The translations under genes and the position numbers were made by a program. A stretch of 64,000 nucleotides of DNA from Holothuria scabra (taxonomy: Eukaryota > Echinodermata > Holothuroidea > Aspidochirotida > Holothuriidae). Of this stretch, positions 7,201-63,846 are shown one piece after another. Every line of letters begins with the position of its first letter. The stretch's first letter is position 1. The notes beneath the pieces are model-generated. The model saw nothing but the letters and a program-made list of their open reading frames with translations, did not search any database and was not told where the DNA came from. The DNA is taken from positions 6,214,284 to 6,278,283 of the forward strand of contig CM074190.1 in assembly GCA_037179385.1 (NCBI GenBank), in the 5' to 3' direction.

Positions 7201-10200
7201 GAACACACATCTGTCAGGAAGATATTCATGAAAACAGATGGGAAGAGGACACCTTAATTGATCTACATTGTAACCGAAATGGGAAATTAAAGATTAGATG
7301 ATTCGCTTGCTAGCTGATGTTATAATCATATGTTTGTTTAAAGTGTGCCCCAAGTCAAAAAATTCAAAAATATGTATTAAGCAGCATGAAAAATGAATTC
7401 TAACAGTCCAACTCCCATCTTCATGGGATTCTTGAGCCGAGATATAAAATGCTGAAGTTTATTCACTCAAATTAAAATGGTACCTTACACAATAATTTGT
7501 GATGTCATTGTTGTACTACTCAAGTTTCGATCTTTTTATTTCTTTGTTTTTCTAAAAGCTACTGCACCTTGTAACAAAGTGTGACAGGACTCTTAGTCTT
7601 TTGGGGTGATGTAATTAATTAAACCATCCCTGTGCAACATGCTATGCAAGCAAACAGGAAGTGTTCAAGGTCATAAAAACATTTTTAATTTTAAACAGAA
7701 ACAAAGCAGGTTATGTGAAGTTGTACAACAAGAAAGTCACAAATTGTTGTGCAATGGAACAATTTGTTTAAGTGAATAAACGTCAACTTTTTATATCTCG
7801 GCTCAGTAATGCCCTATGAAGATGGGAGTTGGACTGTTTGAATTCATTTTTCATGCTGTTTAATAAATATTTTTGAATTTTTTGACTTGCAGTACACTTT
7901 AAAAGTGCTGGTCTTTAAAAGGTGCAGCTAGATTGAATCCTTCTCAGTACTGTAGAGACCAGTGTGTATCTTGCAATCTTGGGTCTCTTAACCAACTTCA
8001 TGTATGGTCAATTGGTTAGAGCATGCAAGATTCAGTTGAGAGGTCAGGAGTTCAACTCCTTGCTGGGTCATACCAAAGACTTTTCAATTTGAACCACTGT
8101 CATTGTGTTTGGTGCTGAGAAGTAGTGGGGAAGTAGGGAAAACAAGCCACTGAGCCAAAACTGGAAGATAAACCACTTTGTTAGAAACTGAGCCGTGAAA
8201 CTCTGTCTGACTATTTATCCATCTAGCTCATAATCATGTTCTTCATACTTTTTGTCATCCAGATAATTGGTCCAGACCTATTTTTGGTGTAGATGATAGT
8301 TTTCTGTCTATGTCTAAAGAAGAAAGACAACACAGAGATTTGGCACAGTTGTCAGCTGTCAAAAGGAGGAGAATGAGGTGAGAATTTAATTTATATAAAT
8401 CCTTTTAAAGGCCAAATCCTCTCACCCCAGACAGTTCCAATTCTCATAATCTACTTACTTTAGCCCCTCCCCCCCCTCCCCCTCCTCCTTCCCTCATACA
8501 AGACCCATTGTGTAATCAGAGCACAATCAAGTACAGTTCATGCTGTGCAATATGAGCTATAGTTTCTCACAAAGGGTAAGTGTGACTAGTCTAATATTTT
8601 CTTCTAGGGTAGGTCATTTTGAATAGATGGGCCCTATTGCAGAGGTGCCAACTCTCCCTGATTCTCAGGGAGGCTCCCTGAAAATTCAAGGATTTTCGTC
8701 CATTCCAACTAGCAAATATGACAATCTCCCCGATGCAAGAAAGTTTTCCCCCCATGAGTTGCATGTAATTCTAGAAAATCTCCCTGATTCCTGTGTGAAA
8801 CGTCCCTGATTTCTGGATGTAAATGTTGGCATCTCTGCTATTGTTTCTGGTTGAGGTCAAAGGCCATTTGGGATCACAAGGTGTCAAATAGTAAATACCT
8901 TAGAATTTGCTTGTCATTAGGCATAAGGTTGCCTCTATACAATTTATACCCGACACCCCACTTTTTGTTCAAAAAGTGATGTTACAGCAAGGTCAACCTG
9001 ACTTCCTATTATCAGCTTTCTGTCAATAGTAGCTGCCACGTCCAGCACTATGTAAACAAAGAGTCCCATTGAAAACCTCATTCACAAAGGCAGAGACTGT
9101 TTATTCAACATGTAGGCTGGTTGTGCTGCCACTGAAGCGTGATAAATTGTGTAAACAAACATTGCCCAGACTGCATAGAGGTAGCTTATGCCTAATGTAG
9201 ACACATTATCTCAAGCAGGGTAAGTGTGATTAATCTTGCATATGGGTGTGGGGGTTGGTCATATTAAGAAGGAGATCCCTATGGGTTTTGGTCGTGGTCA
9301 AAGGTCATGCGGGGTCACCGGTCTTTAGAGTGTGAAAACCTTGTTTACATGATATCTGAAGATAGGAAGCTTGAACATAGTTCAAACGTGGTATGCATTA
9401 GGGGATTACACAAAAGGAGCGAAGCCTTTTTTTTTGGTGGAAGTCAAAGGTCATTTGGGGACACTAGTGGACAAAGTCTGAAATTTTTGTTCACAACATC
9501 TGATGGTAGGAAGCTGGGATAAATTTTATACAGGTTATATGGATGCGTTATGGTGATGAGGAGAAGTCTCTTTTTTTTGGTGGAGGTCAAATGTCCTTTG
9601 GCTCACTAGGGGTCAAAGTCTATCAACCCCATGTTTACACAATTTCTCATGGTTGGAGTCTTGGAAACTGCAAAATTTCATACTTTTTCTAAAGTCCTCC
9701 CGACCCTCTGGCAAAGGGCCGTTCGGCGAAACCAAACTTGATACTGCTTCCCGAAGAAGCTATTACGTCCACTGAAGGACAACACTTAACGACCAACCTC
9801 GCGGCCTTCAGACCATTTTCATCATTGGTCTGTCATGTATGGCTCCATTCTTGACTGGATGAAAAGAACAGATACTACACATGATCTTAGCCAAAAGGCC
9901 GAGAAGCGAACTGCAAAATTTCATACATATTATGTGGATGTGATATAGTGAGCAGAACCTCAGTTGTAGGTGGTCAAATGTCATTGCGGTTGTGGCGTGG
10001 TCCAAATCTCTGGACCTGATTTACATGATATCTCAGTGTAGGAAGCTTGTATACCTTGTGGGTGCATTAAGAAGCACTGCCAATTTGAACAAAAAAAAAC
10101 AAACTTACATTTCAGCAGCAAGGAATCACTAAGCCTTTTGGCTTTCTGGTTTGCATTTGCTGTCATTAAAAGAGCTGGGCCAATTGAGAATTTTTGTAGT

Positions 10201-17894: not shown

Positions 17895-18640
17895 TTGATT
17901 GTTTTAAAGTAATAGCAAGTTTTTTGAGAGCAGGTAAAAATAACTTATGAGAGAGGTACAAGGGGGTGTTTTTCTCTCTCTAACCACATTGTGTATTGTT
18001 TATTGGTGATAATTATCAAGTTTGATTACAAAAATAAATACATATGGACATGAGGAAATGTTTTTGAAGGATCACCAAGCATTATACAAGTTGAATGTAA
18101 GTAAGGCCACAAAAATTTAATCATTGATATCAATATAAGTACTAAAATACCCCTTGTGAAGATGTTACAAACATTGAGTATGAGCTTTCGCTTCGCTCTG
18201 TTTCGAAGACTGGCTGTACACTAGTTCTTATAATATCCAGCAAGGAACCACAGTGTTCATTGGGCTGTTGTTTTAAGTAATAGCAAGTTTTATTTGAGAG
18301 CAGGTAAAAATAACTTATGAGAGAGGTACAAGGGGTGTTTTTCTCTCTCTAACCACATTGTGTATTGTTTATTGGTGATAATATCAAGTTTGATTACAAG
18401 CATAAATACACATGGAAATGAAATGTTTTTGAAGGATCACCAAGCATTATACAAGTTGAATGTAAGTAAGGCCACTAAAATTTAATAATTGATATCATGT
18501 AATATAAGTACTAAAATACCCCTTGTGAAGATGTTACAAACATTGAGTATGAGCTTTCCTTTCGCTCTATTTCGAAGACTGGCTGTAGACTAGTTCTTAT
18601 AATATCCAGCAAGGAACCACAGTGCCCATTGGGCTCTTGT
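17895..18640 (+). repeat. Tandem duplication, period about 370 bases
   Basis: Two head-to-tail copies, for example AACTTATGAGAGAGGTACAA near 17942 and 18312. They differ by small indels and substitutions. Each ends TATCCAGCAAGGAACCACAG. No coding sequence seen. Confidence 0.85.
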
Positions 18641-18880
18641 TTATTGTGAAATCAGGAATCAAATATCCTCAGCTACCCAAATCCCTTTAAATCAAGTAGC
18701 TGCCTAGGGTCCTATATATTGCATAGCACTTGGAACGTCATCTGTAGGCACGGGGTATGCCAGAGAATGGAATGATGCCAGATATTCCTCAGATAAAAAA
18801 AAAATGAAAATGGGGGACTGGGTCAGGAGGGGGACCCTTTCTCATAGAAAAGATGATGTGTGCAGGTTGAGGCCCATAAT

Positions 18881-22039: not shown

Positions 22040-22825
22040 GGCGAGTCTATGGTTTTTGGAGGAGATCAAAAGTCATTTGGGGTCACGGGAGGTCAAAAGG
22101 TTAAGACCTTGTAAACACGACATCTCACGAGAGGTATATGTGGCTTTGCTCATATTTGGGGTGTGTGAATTGACTGTATTGGGTAGAAGATCTGTATCAT
22201 TTTTGCGGAGGTCAAAGGTCATGTGGTGTCAGCAGAGGTCCAATTCTGACAAACTTGTTTACACATTATCTCAAGAAAAGCAACTTGCAGGGTCCTCATT
22301 CTTGGCATTTAGATGGTGCATACTGTATATTACATACGATCCCTATAGTTGTGGTGGATGTCAAAGGTCGTGTGGGGTTACGGGTAGTTAAGTCTGAAAA
22401 AATTGTTTGCACAATATCTGAAGGTACTGAAATATATCATAAATGGTATGTGGATGTGTTATACTAAGGGAAGGCAGCATATTGTTATGGCTGAGGTCAA
22501 AGGTCATTTGGAGTCACCTGAGTTACATGATGGTCGAAAGCTTGGGAAAATTTCATACATGTTATGTGGACGCATTATGGTGAGAAGCAGAACTCTCTTG
22601 CGTTTGGTGGAGGTCAATGTCATTTGGGTTCACAAGGAGTCGAAGTCACAACACCATGTTTACACAATTTCTCATTGTTAGAGTCTTGGATACTGCAAAA
22701 TTTTACACAAAACATGGGGATGCGATGTAGTGAGGGTACATTACGGAGCACTGTCAATTTGAAAAAAAAAACACAGACATTTCAACAGAAAAGGATCACC
22801 CAGCCTTTTGGCTTTCTGGTAATTT
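22040..22825 (+). repeat. AGGTCAAAGGTCA repeat block 3 (empty site for the U2 element)
   Basis: Five units spaced about 117-151 bases. Exact AGGTCAAAGGTCA at 22209-22221 and 22494-22506. Near 22680 it reads GAGTCTTGGATACTGCAAAA, then continues directly into the sequence that lies beyond the U2-headed insertion in block 1. It therefore serves as a paralogous pre-insertion site. Confidence 0.72.
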
Positions 22826-24065: not shown

Positions 24066-26845
24066 CAGGGGTGGCGCCAGCGAGGGGGCCGGGGGGCATG
24101 CCCCCCCCCCCCCCGTCGGGGAAGGTCGGCGGTTTCGTCGGGGAGGCCTAAAAAAAATAATAAAAAATAAAAAAAACCTACCAGGACTGAAGTTACTGGA
24201 TGGGTAAACATATTTTTTGTTTTGAAATGAAATTTTAATACTTATCGGAATCTATTTTCAATCACTTTTTCTTTGCTCCGTTATACCACATTCCATGAAC
24301 CCGTGTCCTATCTCCTCCCCCGTCGGGGAAAAATGGCAATTTCCTTCGGGAAGGCCTAAAAATGAACGTAAAGGACTTAAAGTTACTGGATGGATGATTA
24401 TGAACTGTTTTTTCCTTTTTGCACTATTCTAGTCTTTTGTAACGGTATTTTAATGCCTATCTGAATCTGTTTTAATCAATTCTTACTAGCTTTGCCATCC
24501 TTCATCCCATTTCAATCCGCAAGGTCATGCCCCCGTCGGGGAAGGCTGCCGCGGTCTTTCCCCTGTTGTTGAGAAAACCCGATTTCGTCGGGGAGCCTTC
24601 ATCTTCATGCCCACGGTAAACTAATAAAAGATGCGGGTCTGATAAACTTCAGTCACCCGGAAGTTCTTCTTGATTTTTTCACTAGAAGACTATATTCTTC
24701 AAGGAAACTCACAATTCCGAATTTTCTTGACAAAAACAGACGAGAGGTTGATCATGTGCATGCAGCGCCCGATGGTGTGCCATCTAGCCTGCCCCGACAG
24801 CCGAATTCTAGCAACTGTAATGAAAATCTACCAGCCCGTTTTCAGTTACACTTACTGACAAACAGTAGTGTGAGAATGTCTCCCCATAAGTCTGACTGAA
24901 AAACTTATTTGAAGGTACCTTGTGACGTGACATATTTTCAAATACGTTGGAACTTAAAACCATTTATAGTCCGAAATTCGGGCAGTCACGTAAACAAAAT
25001 TTATTTATTTAGTGAACCTAGCAATTATAGTAATTCCGTTGCATAGTTCGCCCCCCCCCCCCCCCCGAAAAGAGGCAAGACCATTACATTTACTTGTAGC
25101 AGTACATTTTATCTGGTACTTTTCTGATCATTTAGCAATTTGGGTTTTTTCTATCGAAGTGAAACTTTCATTTCAAAGGAAAGCTCAAAATAACGACTGC
25201 TTCATTTCTAGTTACAAGTCTGGAAAATTCCATTCCGGCTATCTGAGGGGTTAGATATTTTAACAATTTTCTGTACGCTCCGCACCAACTGATGGTGGCA
25301 CTCCGCATAGATAGTACTTTGGTCGAACAGATTACTCAATAACAGAACAAAGTATTCTTGTAAATTATTCTCCGTTTTGGGGCAGTATTATGAATTTCAA
25401 AGGAAAGCTCAAAATAACGACTGCTTCATTTCTAGTTACAAGTCTGGAAAATTCCATTCCGGCTATCTGAGGGGTTAGATATTTTAACAATTTTCTGTAC
25501 GCTCCGCACCAACTGATGGTGGCACTCCGCATAGATAGTACTTTGGTCGAACAGATTACTCAATAACAGAACAAAGTATTCTTGTAAATTATTCTCCGTT
25601 TTGGGGCAGTATTATGAATTTCAAAGGAAAGCTCAAAATAACGACTGCTTCATTTCTAGTTACAAGTCTGGAAAATTCCATTCCGGCTATCTGAGGGGTT
25701 AGATATTTTAACAATTTTCTGTACGCTCCGCACCAACTGATGGTGGCACTCCGCATAGATAGTACTTTGGTCGAACAGATTACTCAATAACAGAACAAAG
25801 TATTCTTGTAAATTATTCTCCGTTCTGGGACAGTATTATGAAGTGAAAATTTTATTGCGAAAGAAAGCTCGAAAGCTGACTTCTTAAATTCTAATTTGGA
25901 ACACGGAAATGCCATTTCCTGCTGTCTGGGGTTCTCAATTTTTCAAAAATTTCTGTGCGCTCCACTTAGATGGTCTTTCGGGGAGGATTACACTTTTCGG
26001 ACAAAAAACAATTCTGCTCCCTCCCAAACTGAAACTCTCCCGTACGCCTACGACAATAAAAAAATATGAAACTTCGAATATATGCGAAGCCAAACTTTTT
26101 CCTCGGGAGAATGTTCCAATATGGTCTGAGGGCCTGAATCTGCATGATGATATTCAGTAACCCAACAAAACTACAGATCACCCCCTACTTGATTTTTTCT
26201 CATGAGAAGGTGAGATTCGTCCATAAAACGCCCGAACTCTCATAAGCTTTACAATTTTTTCCCCAATATAAGCTTCATATTGTTTAAAGTGGCGAAATTT
26301 GCCATTTCCGATGGATACTCTATACAATAAATAACCAAATCCAACTCTGTTAATCACCCAGCATACTACCTAATTTTGCTCATGATAGGCATATTACTTG
26401 AATAAGCCCAAATATTCTTTATAACCTTACCAAAAAAACAAATTTTCTTTCATTAAATTCCAAAAATTCTCCAATTTAACAAGCCCTTACTTTTCAAATC
26501 TTCGTTCAAAAGGGAAAAACTTTCAGGGCAAACTTGTAGTCTCGTCTCGATTTAAAAAGTATTTCAGCTGTCGCCTATATAACGTTTTTTATTTTTGCCA
26601 TAAGAAGGATAGATTCTCCAACAGAGACCCAAAACTTTTCATGGTACTAACAAAAGCAAAATTTCTTTCAAAAAACTCCAGATTTGTTAAAAACAAAGCC
26701 CAAAATTTCGACGCGCTGCGCGCGCCTCAAATTCTACCAAGTCACGTCCCACCGGGACATAACATCACCTTTGTCGGGGCCATGAAATTCTGGCCCCCTG
26801 TCGGGGAGCTTGGCCCCTGTCGGGCAAATCCTGACGCCACCCCTG
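24066..26845. mobile_element. Non-autonomous hAT-like element, 2.8 kb
   Basis: Left terminus CAGGGGTGGCGCCAGC, right terminus CTGACGCCACCCCTG, so inverted ends of about 15 bases. Flanks AAGGGGAT (24058-24065) and AAGGGGAG (26846-26853) match at 7 of 8. Subterminal GTCGGGGA-type repeats occur inside both ends. The interior carries a 224-bp tandem array and poly-C runs, and no transposase frame. CAGGG termini with an 8-base duplication point to hAT. Confidence 0.72.
25167..25838 (+). repeat. Three 224-bp tandem units inside the hAT-like element
   Basis: Units at about 25167, 25391 and 25615 are nearly identical (for example CACCAACTGATGGTGGCACT in each). A clearly diverged fourth unit follows from 25844 and a distant relative lies at 19620. 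The high identity of three copies beside diverged ones suggests recent local amplification, or an assembly effect. Confidence 0.92.
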
Positions 26846-31653: not shown

Positions 31654-32259
31654 TTAAAGGCCCAGTTCTCTCACCCGAAACAGTACTAATTCTCCTAACC
31701 TTTTTACTTAAAGGAACAATCCTCTCACCCCAAAATACACTTCTAGTATAGGGTAACAGAAACTCTCAATTGGCTCAGCTTTTTTATTGACTTCTAATTC
31801 AAACAATGCAGAGTACCAAAGCTTATATTTCACAGCATGAACTGTTCTGAGAGTGTTTTGATAATATACCTTGAGCTTTCTATACTCACCCTGAAAAAAT
31901 AAAATGAGATTGTGTCTGCATGAGAGTGAATTTCAGACAATTGTGGGAGGGGCTTAATTAAGAAGGTTGGGAGAATTGGTACTGTTTGGGATGAGAAAAT
32001 TGGGCCTTTAAGCCTTTTCCCACAATTGTCTGAAATTCATGCTCATTAAGATACAATCTCAGTTTATTGCTTCAAGGTGAGTAAAGAAAAACTCCATTTA
32101 TATAATCAAAGCACTCTCAGTACCGTTCATGCTGTGTAATAAAAGCTTTGGTACTCTGCATCGTTTGAATCAGCTGTCAATCAAATGGCTGAGCCAATTG
32201 AGAATTTTGATACCCTCGTACCAAAATAATAGTTTGGAGGGAGAGGTTTGACCCTTTAA
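31654..32259. mobile_element. TTAA-type MITE inserted into another copy of the same family
   Basis: The outer reverse copy is split into 31654-31707 and 32012-32259. A full forward copy occupies 31712-32007. TTAA stands at both junctions (31708-31711 and 32008-32011). Removing the insert with one TTAA would join the outer halves at the TTAA that other reverse copies carry at that place. Ends AGGAACAATCCTCTCACCCC and the inverse of AGGCCCAATTTTCTCATCCC. TTAA duplication plus TTAAAGG termini resemble Xenopus T2 MITEs and the Kolobok superfamily. Confidence 0.78.
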
Positions 32260-37620: not shown

Positions 37621-37924
37621 ACTTAAGGGCCAATCCTCTCACCCCAAAGTAGGGGTTTACAGAAATTCTCAATTAGCTCAACTCTTTGATTGACAGCTAA
37701 TTTAAACAATGCAGAGTAGTAGAGTACGAAAGCTTATATCACACAGCCTGAACTGCACTGAGAGTGTTTTAATTATACACATTGAGCTGTTCTATATTCA
37801 CCCTGAAGCAATAAATTGAGTGTCTGGATGAAGATGAATTTTAGACAATTGTAGGAGGGGCTTAATTAAGAAGATTTCAGTTGGAGAATTGGTAATGTTT
37901 GGGGTGAGAGAATTTGGCCTTTAA
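37621..37924 (+). mobile_element. TTAA-type MITE (family T1), complete copy
   Basis: Left TTAAGGGCCAATCCTCTCAC, right inverse of TTAAAGGCCAAATTCTCTCA. About 300 bases, with the family interior AACTGCACTGAGAGTGTTTT. Best-preserved full-length member. Confidence 0.75.
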
Positions 37925-46860: not shown

Positions 46861-47619
46861 GTAAGAAATCGGCTCCTATACAGATGATTATCTCCGTAAC
46901 ACGTTTCTAACACTTACCCTCCCGGCCCGTCAGGGTAATGTGAAATTCATTTGTATTTACTCCATCCTACGGTAAGTTAGTGGTATATGAATAGTAATTA
47001 CTTCAAACCTTCTCAACATCCCAAACCAACAAAATGGAACGGGCACTCGTCACGTGTAAACTGTATAAACGGTATAGAATCATTTTATCAGTCAGATCTG
47101 CTCGAGTCCAATCATTAGGGTCAAAGGTGGAAATTTATTCCAAACATTGGGATTATTATATACCTCATTTCAAAAAATATACTGCATGGAAAACCAAAGT
47201 CAATAGTCAATTCATCAAATGTTTGTGGCACAAACGGCAAATAAAAGCTCGTAAGAATATTTCGGAAAAACTGTCACAGGTATGTCCGTTAAACAAACGG
47301 TCATTCCTTCTTAAGTGGCAAAAACCAAGACACTCGTCGAAATGAACCCCGAAATACCTCTAATAAACTTTTCAAGTAGGCCTACATGTTTTTCAAACAA
47401 AGTTTAAAATTAACGCCGTCTCCATGATGCTTCCATTTAATAACGGAAATCATGTGGGAGAAATTATATCTTGTACTCCAAGTCCAAAATTTCAAAAAAA
47501 AAAAAAAAAAACATGTTACAAAATTAAAAAGTAATTCCATTACGCATGGTCTATAATCTAAATTCTCAGGACTGACTTAAGCTGAGAAAAAGAAAGCTTT
47601 CAAGCTCATTCACTCAATT

Positions 47620-47912
47620 TAAAGGCCTAATCCTCTCACGTTAAACAGTTCCTAATCTCCAAACCAACTTATTAACCCCTCCTACATCTGTCTAAAACTC
47701 ATTCTCACCCAGACACAATCTCAGTTTATTGTTCCAGGAGCAAGTAAACAAGCCCCCTATGTGTAATCAAAACAAAACTGAGTACAGTACTTGCAGTGTA
47801 ATATGAGCGTCAGTACTCTGCATTTTGTATCTTGCTGTCAATCAAAAACCTGCGCCAATCGATAATTTCGGTAGACTACCACGAAAATTTTGGGTGAGAG
47901 TTGACTGCCTTT
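47620..47912 (-). mobile_element. TTAA-type MITE (family T1), reverse copy
   Basis: Starts TTTAAAGGCCTAATCCTCTC, interior CACCCAGACACAATCTCAGT, ends GGTGAGAGTTGACTGCCTTT. About 290 bases. Confidence 0.65.
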
Positions 47913-58640: not shown

Positions 58641-59127
58641 ATACCTCCTGCTACTCAGTTGAGCTCCCAGTATGACCATAGGATGATTACACCAGAAAAG
58701 CTCCCTGATTAGACCTATTGATCAGGCTTAGTGGAGTGATATGGTGGCCGTTGCACTGAACGTTACATAGCAAACAAATTGACTGTATTTACGGTAAACT
58801 CATCAGGCCATATAGCCGGACAAGGTTCTAGAAGGGGGGATTTTTTGAGTCAATTCGAACTTCAAAAGTTCCCCTCGCTGGCTAAATATGGAACAAAGCA
58901 GATTTAAGTGCCGTTACGGTGTAATGACCCTTGGGTTTGCAATAACATGCACACAAATAATCAAACAAAAGGCCCTATTAAATCACGTACACAGTCAAAT
59001 CGGATCATGAACAGACGAGATCCATTCATGACCTACGGTATCTCTGAAATGACATGAAAAAAGCAAGCTGGTGTTTGATGACTAGGATAAGGTTTCGATT
59101 AAATGGATGGTGGATGTATCGAGTTAT

Positions 59128-59432
59128 GGGACCAATCCTCTCTCCCAAAACTATAATGTGGTAGGGGTTTAACAAAATCCTCAATTGGCTCAGCTCTTTG
59201 ATTGACAGTTAATTCAAACAATGCAGAGTACCAAAGCTTCTATTACACAACATGAACTGTACTGAGAGTGTTTTGATTATACACGTTGAGCAGCTCATTT
59301 ATACTCAACCTGAAGCAATAAACTGTGATGGCCTCTGGATAAGAATGAATTTAAAAAAATTGTGGACGGGGCATAAGTAAGAAGGTGAGGAGAATTAGTT
59401 CTGTTTGGAGTGAGAGAACTGGTCCTTTAAGG
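59128..59432 (+). mobile_element. TTAA-type MITE (family T1), forward copy
   Basis: Left GGGACCAATCCTCTCTCCC, interior GCAGAGTACCAAAGCTTCTA, right GAGAGAACTGGTCCTTTAA. The left TTAA is mutated to TTAT. Confidence 0.7.
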
Positions 59433-61382: not shown

Positions 61383-63745
61383 GATTACATCTTTACTTCG
61401 TATGTCCATATAGAAAGATATGAAAGGCTCGGAACTCTTATGCTTTTTAATTTTTGCTGGATGCTGTGCCTCAATGACGTCATCAACTTCCCAAGGTGAG
61501 ATATTTTTAATAACTAGCCTATATTAACCCCGATTCTCATTTGAACGGCGACCGTTAAGGTTACAATTTTTTTTTATTTAGTTCAAGTACGTGTACGCAG
61601 TTTTTCATTTTTATTCGGTCTCCACTTAAAATCTTATCCATAACTGATATTGTGGAGCTGGGGATGGGGAGAAGAAGGGAAGAGGACATGTATAATGTAT
61701 TCCTATTTTACTATAATGGAAGACTTAGCCTATAATTGGAGTAACCGGATGTCAGTGACATGGGCCGTAAACCCACATCTAACCTAACCAAACCTAACCC
61801 GTCAGTGATATAACTTAGTACTCTCATAACTGAAAAAGACGTTTATTTTTTCAAAACGTTTAATTGGACTGTAAGCTTATTCTTTCGAAAATGTCTTGCC
61901 CTAGCCCCGGGTGCGGAAAAACGGGTGTCGATCGTTATGAAAAAATTAAACCACCGTGTCAATGTGAGCGAAGCCACAGAAGCCCTTATACTGTAGTCAT
62001 TCTCGTCTTTACTTCAACCCCGCCTCCCCAAGCGAAGCAAACAAACAGCTGATTTATTTGTCAAAAATTAATATTTAACTAAATCGGCCTGATTTGTACA
62101 TGGTACTCACATCAATATTTTTGGAAATATTCCATAAATTCCGATTTGCCTTGATTATATAGTGACGGCAAAAGGGACATTTTAGAGAGATATATCGTTT
62201 CAGACCAACTTTTCAGAGTTAATTTGAGCACCCCATTTCCATTACTGATGGACGGTATAGATTTTTTGGCCAATTTATCCGTCTTTGCCGTCATTTAGAT
62301 GGTAAACTCTTCAAGAGAAGTGTGCAAGCATTAAAGTTTTACCGATCTTTGTGCCCCTAACACCATTGAGACCTACTATGGCTTCTACAGCCATTGGCGT
62401 TAAAGACCAGACCAAGTGGCTGGCTACGCATAGAACACTCAAAGAATGGCCTTTAAAACAAGCAGCTTTGGTTTATTTTTGACGCCAAGAGAACATCAGA
62501 GGCAGACAAGCTAAAGTGTTTGGTTGGAAAAGTGGGTCATTGTTTGCTCTCATTTGTTTACAACAATTCTTAACACAAAAGATTGGGAAGTATTAACGGT
62601 GGCACAAGGGCGGGCGTGGTACCGGGTCTGAGAAACAAACGGCACTGTTAATCTACGGGAGCATTTACGGGACATGCAGACGTGAAACATACGTTTAAAG
62701 AAAATGAAAAGAAGGATATATATATATAAGTATATAACCATAGCCAGAGAAACATTCCAATGCGTTTTTAACTTTTTCACCTTCTGAGTAGGAGGGTAAG
62801 GATCGGGAAAAACTCTTTTGTCCAGCTCATGGTTAAAAAGAAAAATAATAATAATAATAATTAAGGGCCGGAAGCCACAAAGGAGCTGCACAGGTTGGAA
62901 TGCGAGTTTCGCTGTGCGAGTGAGAGGATGATGAGAAAGATTCTTTTTTTTTTTTTGTCCTTCGACATCGGTATTGACAAAAATTGCAAACTTCATTTGC
63001 AAGAAAATGCGCAACGAAATTCCGAAAATCCGTTAGTCGACTGTCGTGTGTATAAATGAAGTCGCCATATGAGAAATGTTGCTCGCCAACGACGAATTGG
63101 CGATCGATTGTGTTCTGGCCTGATAGTCGATTGAAATCGGATTGATTTACGTGGAATAGGGTTTTTATTCATTTGCAGTAGGAATATTCTGGCAAAATGT
63201 GAGCAGCTGTTAGCTCATCCGATTTTGTGTGGAATGAAAAATCGAGGTTGGAGGAACATTGCCTGCCAATTTGATCGATTATCTTATTTAAATATTCAAT
63301 TGAACCAATAATTGGTATTAAAGATAATCCTCAGAAATTCAACAATCAAATTGATTTTGGGTAACTGTGGGAAATATGGACCCTGTCGATTGGATCGATA
63401 ATGTGTATAAAATTATTCGATTCAACCGATATGTTGCTGACTTAGGCGATGCGATATTCATGAATATTCATGTTGAAAATCTGTATGCAGCAACGCTCTC
63501 CAATTTGTGAATTTGATAATCAACATACGTGTTTTGATTCTCAGCAGAAAATTGTGAGTTCGGTGACAACACATATCAAGTTGGTGAGAGCTGGAATCCT
63601 ATATTAGAACCTGGGGGGGTGGATCGCTGCATTACTTGCCGTTGTAATGCCCCTAATCGTGTTTCTTGTGATAAAATGCCGTGTCCAACTGTACAGTGCT
63701 CTAACCCAGTTCGACTTGAAAACAGCTGTTGTTACGTCTGTACAA
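61383..63745 (+). CDS. CHRD: Chordin, 5' part (signal peptide and first VWC domain)
   Basis: Coding join 61420-61495 and 63545-63745, continuing past the right edge. Chordin is a secreted protein that binds BMP ligands through cysteine-rich VWC domains, blocks receptor access and sets the dorsoventral axis. It is cut by Tolloid proteases (family knowledge). Exon 1 starts MKGSELLCFLIFAGCCA, a signal peptide. Exon 2 encodes a VWC domain with ten cysteines: C-EFGDNTYQVGESWNP, a chordin-like ILEPGGVDRCITCRCNAP, then VSCDKMPCP and NSCCYVC. The E-S-W-x-P-x-L-x-x-P-G-V-x-R-C pattern matches the first VWC of chordin better than kielin/crossveinless-2 types. A short VWC protein cannot be excluded, because the CHRD domains are outside the window. 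Confidence 0.82.
61420..61495 (+). CDS. CHRD: Chordin exon with start codon and signal peptide
   Basis: ATG at 61420 opens MKGSELLCFLIFAGCCASMT, then SSTSQ. It has a short n-region, a hydrophobic core, and a likely cleavage site after the CCAS region. Donor CAAG|GTGAG. A T-rich acceptor at 61382 precedes it, so 61383-61419 would be 5' UTR. It contains a TGACGTCA octamer at 61475-61482. Confidence 0.78.
62163..62293. mobile_element. Small element with TGACGGCAAA inverted ends
   Basis: Left TGACGGCAAAAGGGACA, right inverse of TGACGGCAAAGACGGATAA. About 131 bases, in the chordin intron. Superfamily not assigned; flanks TATAG and TTTAG are only similar. Confidence 0.5.
62844..62860. repeat. AAT microsatellite
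   Basis: About five to six AAT units. Confidence 0.8.
63545..63745 (+). CDS. CHRD: Chordin exon, first VWC domain
   Basis: The acceptor TTCTCAGCAG is a tandem NAGNAG: use of the first AG gives A-E-N-C, and use of the second (start 63548) gives E-N-C, both in frame. Donor ACAA|GTAAGT at 63746. The complete ten-cysteine VWC pattern lies in one exon with phase 1 at both ends, so the domain is a symmetrical module. Confidence 0.85.
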
Positions 63746-63846
63746 GTAAGTATAATGTTCAACGTTGAAATTATTGATAACAAAATAGTGTTTTTTTACT
63801 TTTTAATAAATAGTTTGTTGGACTTTTACTTTATATAATTTTCCTG

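Follow-up and report, generated by a model that had tools for sequence, protein, structure and literature searches.

The element at positions 9909-9684 of the window (the whole 64,000-nucleotide stretch of DNA analysed here) is a LINE-type retroinsertion. Its sense strand, the minus strand, opens with U2 snRNA and continues into a longer body that is not recognisable as U2. Folding of the element as RNA predicts that the U2 head pairs with the body of the same element, and this predicted pairing is what is new here. SINEs are usually born from RNAs transcribed by RNA polymerase III (pol III), and the route by which pol II snRNAs become SINE heads is poorly understood. A U2-headed element with its head folded on its body would give a testable route to snRNA heads, through selection on an RNA fold or through template jumping directed by an RNA-RNA hybrid, and not through an internal promoter. 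If the body instead stems from an independent RNA able to hybridise to U2, an unknown U2 partner would be recorded in the insertion. From modelling of the fold, we favour either of two explanations: the retrocopying of a single pre-existing U2-headed RNA folded head-to-body, or a switch of template between U2 and a second RNA with which it was hybridised.

Insertion anatomy and target site

Read in U2 sense, the insertion and its target consist of the following parts.

9909-9684, minus strand: whole element, 226 nt, made up of U2 nt 2-51, 171 nt of other sequence and A5
9909..9926, minus strand: 18-bp target-site duplication, 5' copy, which precedes the element when read in sense; exact repeat of 9666-9683
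9860..9909, minus strand: head, U2 snRNA nt 2-51, 48/50 identical, with A30T at 9881 and A48T at 9863
9689..9859, minus strand: body of 171 nt at about 50% G+C, with no recognisable U2 sequence, no Rfam match above noise and no Pfam match
9684..9688, minus strand: A5 tail, read from the sequence
9666..9683, minus strand: 3' copy of the target-site duplication, identical to 9909-9926
22338..22734, plus strand: empty site, represented by a paralogue of the dispersed repeat that the element interrupts; the joined flanks align with it across the junction at 72% over 437 bp

The first-pass annotation had proposed a U2-headed retroelement with a target duplication, and this description is borne out by the head, the perfect 18-bp repeats, the A tail and the paralogous empty site. 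The identical flanking repeats that it had noted agree at 18/18 bp, the tail that it had called short proves to be 5 nt long and directly adjoins the 3' duplication, and its assignment of the start of the minus strand to the first 45-50 bases of U2 is refined to nt 2-51. Target-site duplications of target-primed retrocopies measure approximately 7-20 bp, and the present duplication of 18 bp falls within the range of LINE-mobilised retrocopies. Exact pairs of 18-mers at a spacing of 200-300 bp number 415 across the whole window, all of them on two diagonals that correspond to the element's duplication and to a 224-bp tandem array; outside the array, the element's pair is the only one. Base 9909 is common to the duplication and U2 nt 2, giving a 1-nt microhomology. 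The head lacks only the first base of U2, and this start at U2 nt 2, together with the A5 run before the duplication, is expected from target-primed reverse transcription.

The empty site was found by joining the element's flanks with one copy of the duplication and aligning the result, and the match is a paralogue and not the orthologous locus. The element sits inside an older dispersed repeat. Since the duplication is still perfect and the repeat copies are approximately 28% diverged, the insertion is probably much younger than the repeat. The TT/AAAA nick of L1-type enzymes, which applies to the L1 clade only, is not seen, as the duplication begins in sense orientation with GTATG after AT. 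This target is not the L1 consensus, which makes a LINE clade other than L1 the likely source of the enzyme; nick-site strictness is lower in those clades.

Several other features were recorded in the window. The tandem array mentioned above comprises three copies at 99% identity (25170-25842), and a 369-bp tandem duplication with 93% identity occupies 17899-18642. A dispersed repeat family of approximately 300 bp occurs in both orientations, at 31706-32258, 37621-37924, 47619-47900 and 59124-59431; 59124-59431 is matched in one orientation by 31713-32012 and in the other by 32020-32250, which together form an inverted pair. An exon-like open frame on the plus strand (63538-63765) encodes a von Willebrand factor type C domain (Pfam PF00093, E 2.6e-10), the only match above the Pfam cut-off among the 10 frames tested.

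The match of the head to U2 is far beyond chance, one of the two points on which, according to the first-pass annotation, its proposal could fail. The Rfam U2 model scores 58.9 bits on the minus strand from 9910, above its gathering score of 46 (E 2.4e-11 over a 351-base stretch), with good alignment in the 5' part only, and this is the sole Rfam match above a gathering score in the 64-kb window. Our U2 reference was a complete U2 gene, confirmed by Rfam, on contig L001 (JAOZOU010000036.1), to which the head aligns gap-free over nt 2-51 with A30T and A48T as the two differences. A search for the U2-head pattern in prokaryote genome contigs matched three (L001, L002 and L003), each with an Rfam U2 gene, although on L002 the gene lies elsewhere than the pattern match, which is at the contig edge. 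We take all three to be eukaryotic contamination. L001, filed as a bacterial MAG, carries U1, U2, 5S rRNA and three histone 3' stem-loops according to Rfam, and looks like eukaryotic contamination with an animal-type cluster of small-RNA and histone genes. Exact patterns from the U2 head (one scan) and from the body (three scans) gave 0 matches in IMG/VR viral contigs, where diverged copies would escape such patterns, and the element had no match among phages and plasmids.

Predicted pairing of the U2 head with the body

In the predicted fold of the element RNA, the head pairs with the body in two blocks that together comprise 40 pairs, 9 of them G-U.

9890..9906, minus strand: 5' strand of closing helix P1 (U2 nt 5-21), predicted to form 17 uninterrupted pairs with 9696-9712, 5 of them G-U, at probabilities of 0.98-1.0
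9696..9712, minus strand: 3' partner strand in the predicted closing helix P1, located towards the body's 3' end
9864..9884, minus strand: 5' strand of helix P2 (U2 nt 27-47), predicted to form 19 pairs with 9833-9852 at probabilities of 0.68-1.0
9833..9852, minus strand: 3' partner strand in predicted helix P2, separated from the head by 7 nt of body sequence
9717..9832, minus strand: predicted inner domain, consisting of a hairpin (9809-9832) and a multi-hairpin domain closed by GGCC/GGCC (9717-9806), at probabilities of 0.53-1.0

The junction is separated from P2 by 4 nt on its U2 side and by 7 nt on its body side, and one further pair is predicted in between. The fold of the 225-nt RNA (9684-9908) has a predicted energy of -87.8 kcal/mol and a z-score of -5.7, and 0/200 shuffles are as stable. 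None of the 122 window tiles matched for G+C content (43-55%) reaches the stability of the element, and 6 of the 1122 tiles of any composition do so. Folded without the head, the body (177 nt, 9684-9860) is ordinary, with a z-score of -1.85 and 7/200 shuffles as good. Pairing of head with body contributes a gain of -24.1 kcal/mol, which was reached by 0/1500 shuffled bodies and 0/1500 shuffled heads; a smaller test on total energy gave 0/300 for both. The gain remains at -17.5 kcal/mol when the head is replaced by the exact U2 nt 2-51 sequence, a value that 0/1500 shuffled bodies reach, and six other 50-nt segments of U2 give gains with the body of 0.0 to -12.9 kcal/mol. On the opposite strand the fold has a z-score of -1.5 and the pairing gain is only -8.7 kcal/mol. 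Of the head-body pairs, 9/40 are G-U, which pair on the sense strand only. This evidence was noticed post hoc, in one sequence and with one energy model, without covariation.

Other measures of complementarity gave weaker results. The duplex energy between head and body is equalled by 8/1000 shuffles for the whole body, 10/1000 for its first 60 nt and 4/1000 for its last 60 nt, and the 17-bp helix is equalled by 1/5000 shuffles. When the body was aligned to the whole of antisense U2 with gaps and wobble pairs allowed, the score was not significant (270/1000 shuffles as good). Among 176-base tiles of the window taken on both strands (n=726), two form such helices with the head, one of 17 bp and the other of 50 bp; to judge by position, the first should be the body of the element itself and the second its head in antisense.

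The two substitutions in the head differ in their relation to the fold. A30T forms one P2 pair and adds 4.4 kcal/mol to the stability of the whole fold, the second best of 150 possible single changes, while A48T makes no contribution to fold stability; of 11025 double changes, 211 are at least as good as the observed combination of A30T and A48T. The first substitution (window position 9881, minus strand) falls on U2 nt A30, a residue that METTL4 N6-methylates in human and Drosophila (PMC9512776). A30T could have arisen by misreading of this modified base in the template, or it could be a change that strengthens the pairing of head and body.

Identity of the body and origin of the template

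The switch, early in the element, to about 175 bases unrelated to U2 that had been described from the letters is upheld as a 171-nt body no closer to U2 than its shuffles are. Scores as good were obtained by 421/500 shuffles for the alignment to U2 nt 52 onward, 367/500 for whole U2 in sense and 232/500 for U2 antisense. On these comparisons the body was rejected as U2 in either orientation, and it is not recognisable as diverged U2, the possibility that the first-pass annotation had named as a refutation. A plain diverged or truncated U2 pseudogene, which would account for the U2 head and for the stretching of the Rfam model over part of the body, is rejected on the same comparison, and we consider it extremely improbable.

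Other identities for the body were tried and set aside. G+C content is approximately 50% in the body and 33-43% in the 2-kb steps of the window, and no Rfam family matches the body above noise. The longest open stretch in the element measures 47 codons in sense and 53 codons in antisense; across six frames, chance alone is estimated to give a stretch that long in roughly one case out of two. A Pfam scan of the element, covering its full length in five frames and the 47-codon open stretch in the remaining one, gave no match at E up to 10, the 47-codon piece had no match among PDB sequences, and none of the four types of poly(A)-signal hexamer searched for occurs in the element; on these grounds an mRNA was rejected. 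A C/D snoRNA was rejected also, as its Rfam matches are at chance level (best E 0.29) and the C-like and D-like boxes stand in the wrong order and at the wrong spacing.

On the sense strand, the best A box (7/9) and the best B box (6/9) of a pol III promoter are equalled by 182/500 and 339/500 random pieces of the window, and TTTT runs lie inside the head at nt 14 and nt 45. With no boxes above background level, an internal pol III promoter was rejected. Judged from these boxes and runs, pol III transcription of the element is unlikely, and the missing promoter and the two TTTT runs indicate that it is not a classical SINE. These results bear on the possibility that the element belongs to an amplified SINE family with a U2-derived head, comparable to the SINEU elements discussed below. 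An snRNA head, an unrelated body, an A tail, a target duplication, insertion within a repeat and a fold on the sense strand would all suit such a family. Against it stand the lack of an internal promoter and of a second copy in the 64-kb window, in which the best blastn match outside the element and its duplication has an E value of 0.16. The family is one branch of the first of our two favoured explanations and is included in the weight given to that explanation; taken alone, we think it rather unlikely.

The absence of a second copy in 64 kb is also what would be expected of a one-off chimeric retrocopy, in which a LINE reverse transcriptase would have begun on the body RNA, jumped to U2 at about nt 51 and run to the U2 5' end. 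Precedents for such chimeras exist (PMC4476161, PMC2104539, PMC13174262), and we regard this account as a real contender that nonetheless falls short of an even chance. Its difficulty, where the body is an unrelated RNA, is that the complementarity (0/1500 shuffles in each of three sets) and the stabilising A30T (211/11025) become coincidences. Head-body complementarity beyond 1500 shuffled bodies and 1500 shuffled heads, and weaker on the other strand, argues against fusion with an unrelated RNA. A stronger form of the same account supposes that the body RNA was hybridised to U2 and that a jump at the end of the hybrid left the present hairpin. This would explain why P2 ends so close to the junction on both sides, and it leaves only A30T to chance.

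We can now set out the explanation based on a single folded RNA, to which we give roughly an even chance. The template would have been one RNA, comprising the first ~51 nt of U2 and a body of ~170 nt folded against that head. Head and body would already have been joined before copying, in a SINEU-like SINE or a U2-derived ncRNA gene that was probably transcribed from a U2-type pol II promoter, and the fold between them may have been under selection. After nicking the target, a LINE enzyme would have begun synthesis at the A tail and continued until it reached the RNA's 5' end, so inserting the copy in the older dispersed repeat with its 18-bp target duplication. More tentatively, and somewhat against the balance of probability, the element may represent one of two things: a U2-headed ncRNA (SINE or gene) with a selected architecture and an origin independent of the crocodilian SINEU, or a fossil of an RNA that paired with U2 nt 5-47 in the cell. 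If it is such an ncRNA, the branch-site and U6-binding face of U2 would be locked in a long head-tail helix that closes a multi-hairpin domain. If it is a fossil, a U2-pairing RNA would have been caught by a reverse-transcriptase jump across the hybrid.

Comparison with known systems

Utopia LINEs have an association with U2 in common with the present element. They insert in U2 genes at nt 38, a position that is not the junction here (PMC4640811). Debris of such an element, produced by retrocopying of a U2 gene that a Utopia insertion had cut, was considered as a source and rejected: the disrupted U2 genes of Phytophthora are without their first 38 bp and are cut at nt 38 (PMC4640811), whereas here U2 runs to nt 51. 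A Utopia origin is highly improbable.

Chimeric snRNA retropseudogenes provide another comparison, as the present element likewise holds an snRNA part and other sequence inside one duplication-flanked insertion. PMC4476161 describes snRNAs truncated at the 3' end that share a single target duplication with the retrotransposed or unknown sequence fused to them, among them a U5 chimera with a 15-bp duplication whose 3' part was found once in the genome. This U5 chimera is a close anatomical parallel, with the 5' part of an snRNA in sense and other sequence sharing one duplication. Most of the validated sense fusions in that study are of U6 or U6atac, with U6/L1 among the chimeras, and its U2/L1 case is inverted through twin priming, unlike the element described here (PMC4476161). 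Head-body complementarity, predicted here, receives no mention in the section of PMC4476161 on these chimeras. LINE-1 chimeras with five further RNA types are described in PMC13174262. In Magnaporthe, WEIRD and tripartite chimeras likewise join an ncRNA to another template, are attributed to a LINE reverse transcriptase and, in the tripartite case, have direct repeats; template jumps occur at preferred sites beside predicted hairpins (PMC2104539). The partners there are known LINE and SINE sequences, in contrast to the body described here, and the account of these chimeras in PMC2104539 reports no pairing between nascent cDNA and the second template.

Among the literature matches listed, no title concerned a SINEU from an invertebrate, which is no proof of absence. 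SINEU elements, reportedly described by Kojima in 2015, are said to be U1- or U2-headed SINEs of crocodilians; U1 and U2 heads were reportedly added repeatedly to SINEU-1 5' ends, and the insertions are said to prefer a repeat. We know of no head-body fold described for SINEU. The head of the present element is U2-derived (nt 2-51, 48/50), as a SINEU head is U1- or U2-derived. Both systems place an snRNA-derived head on an unrelated body and insert in LINE-type fashion, and as an analogy the comparison with SINEU appears apt.
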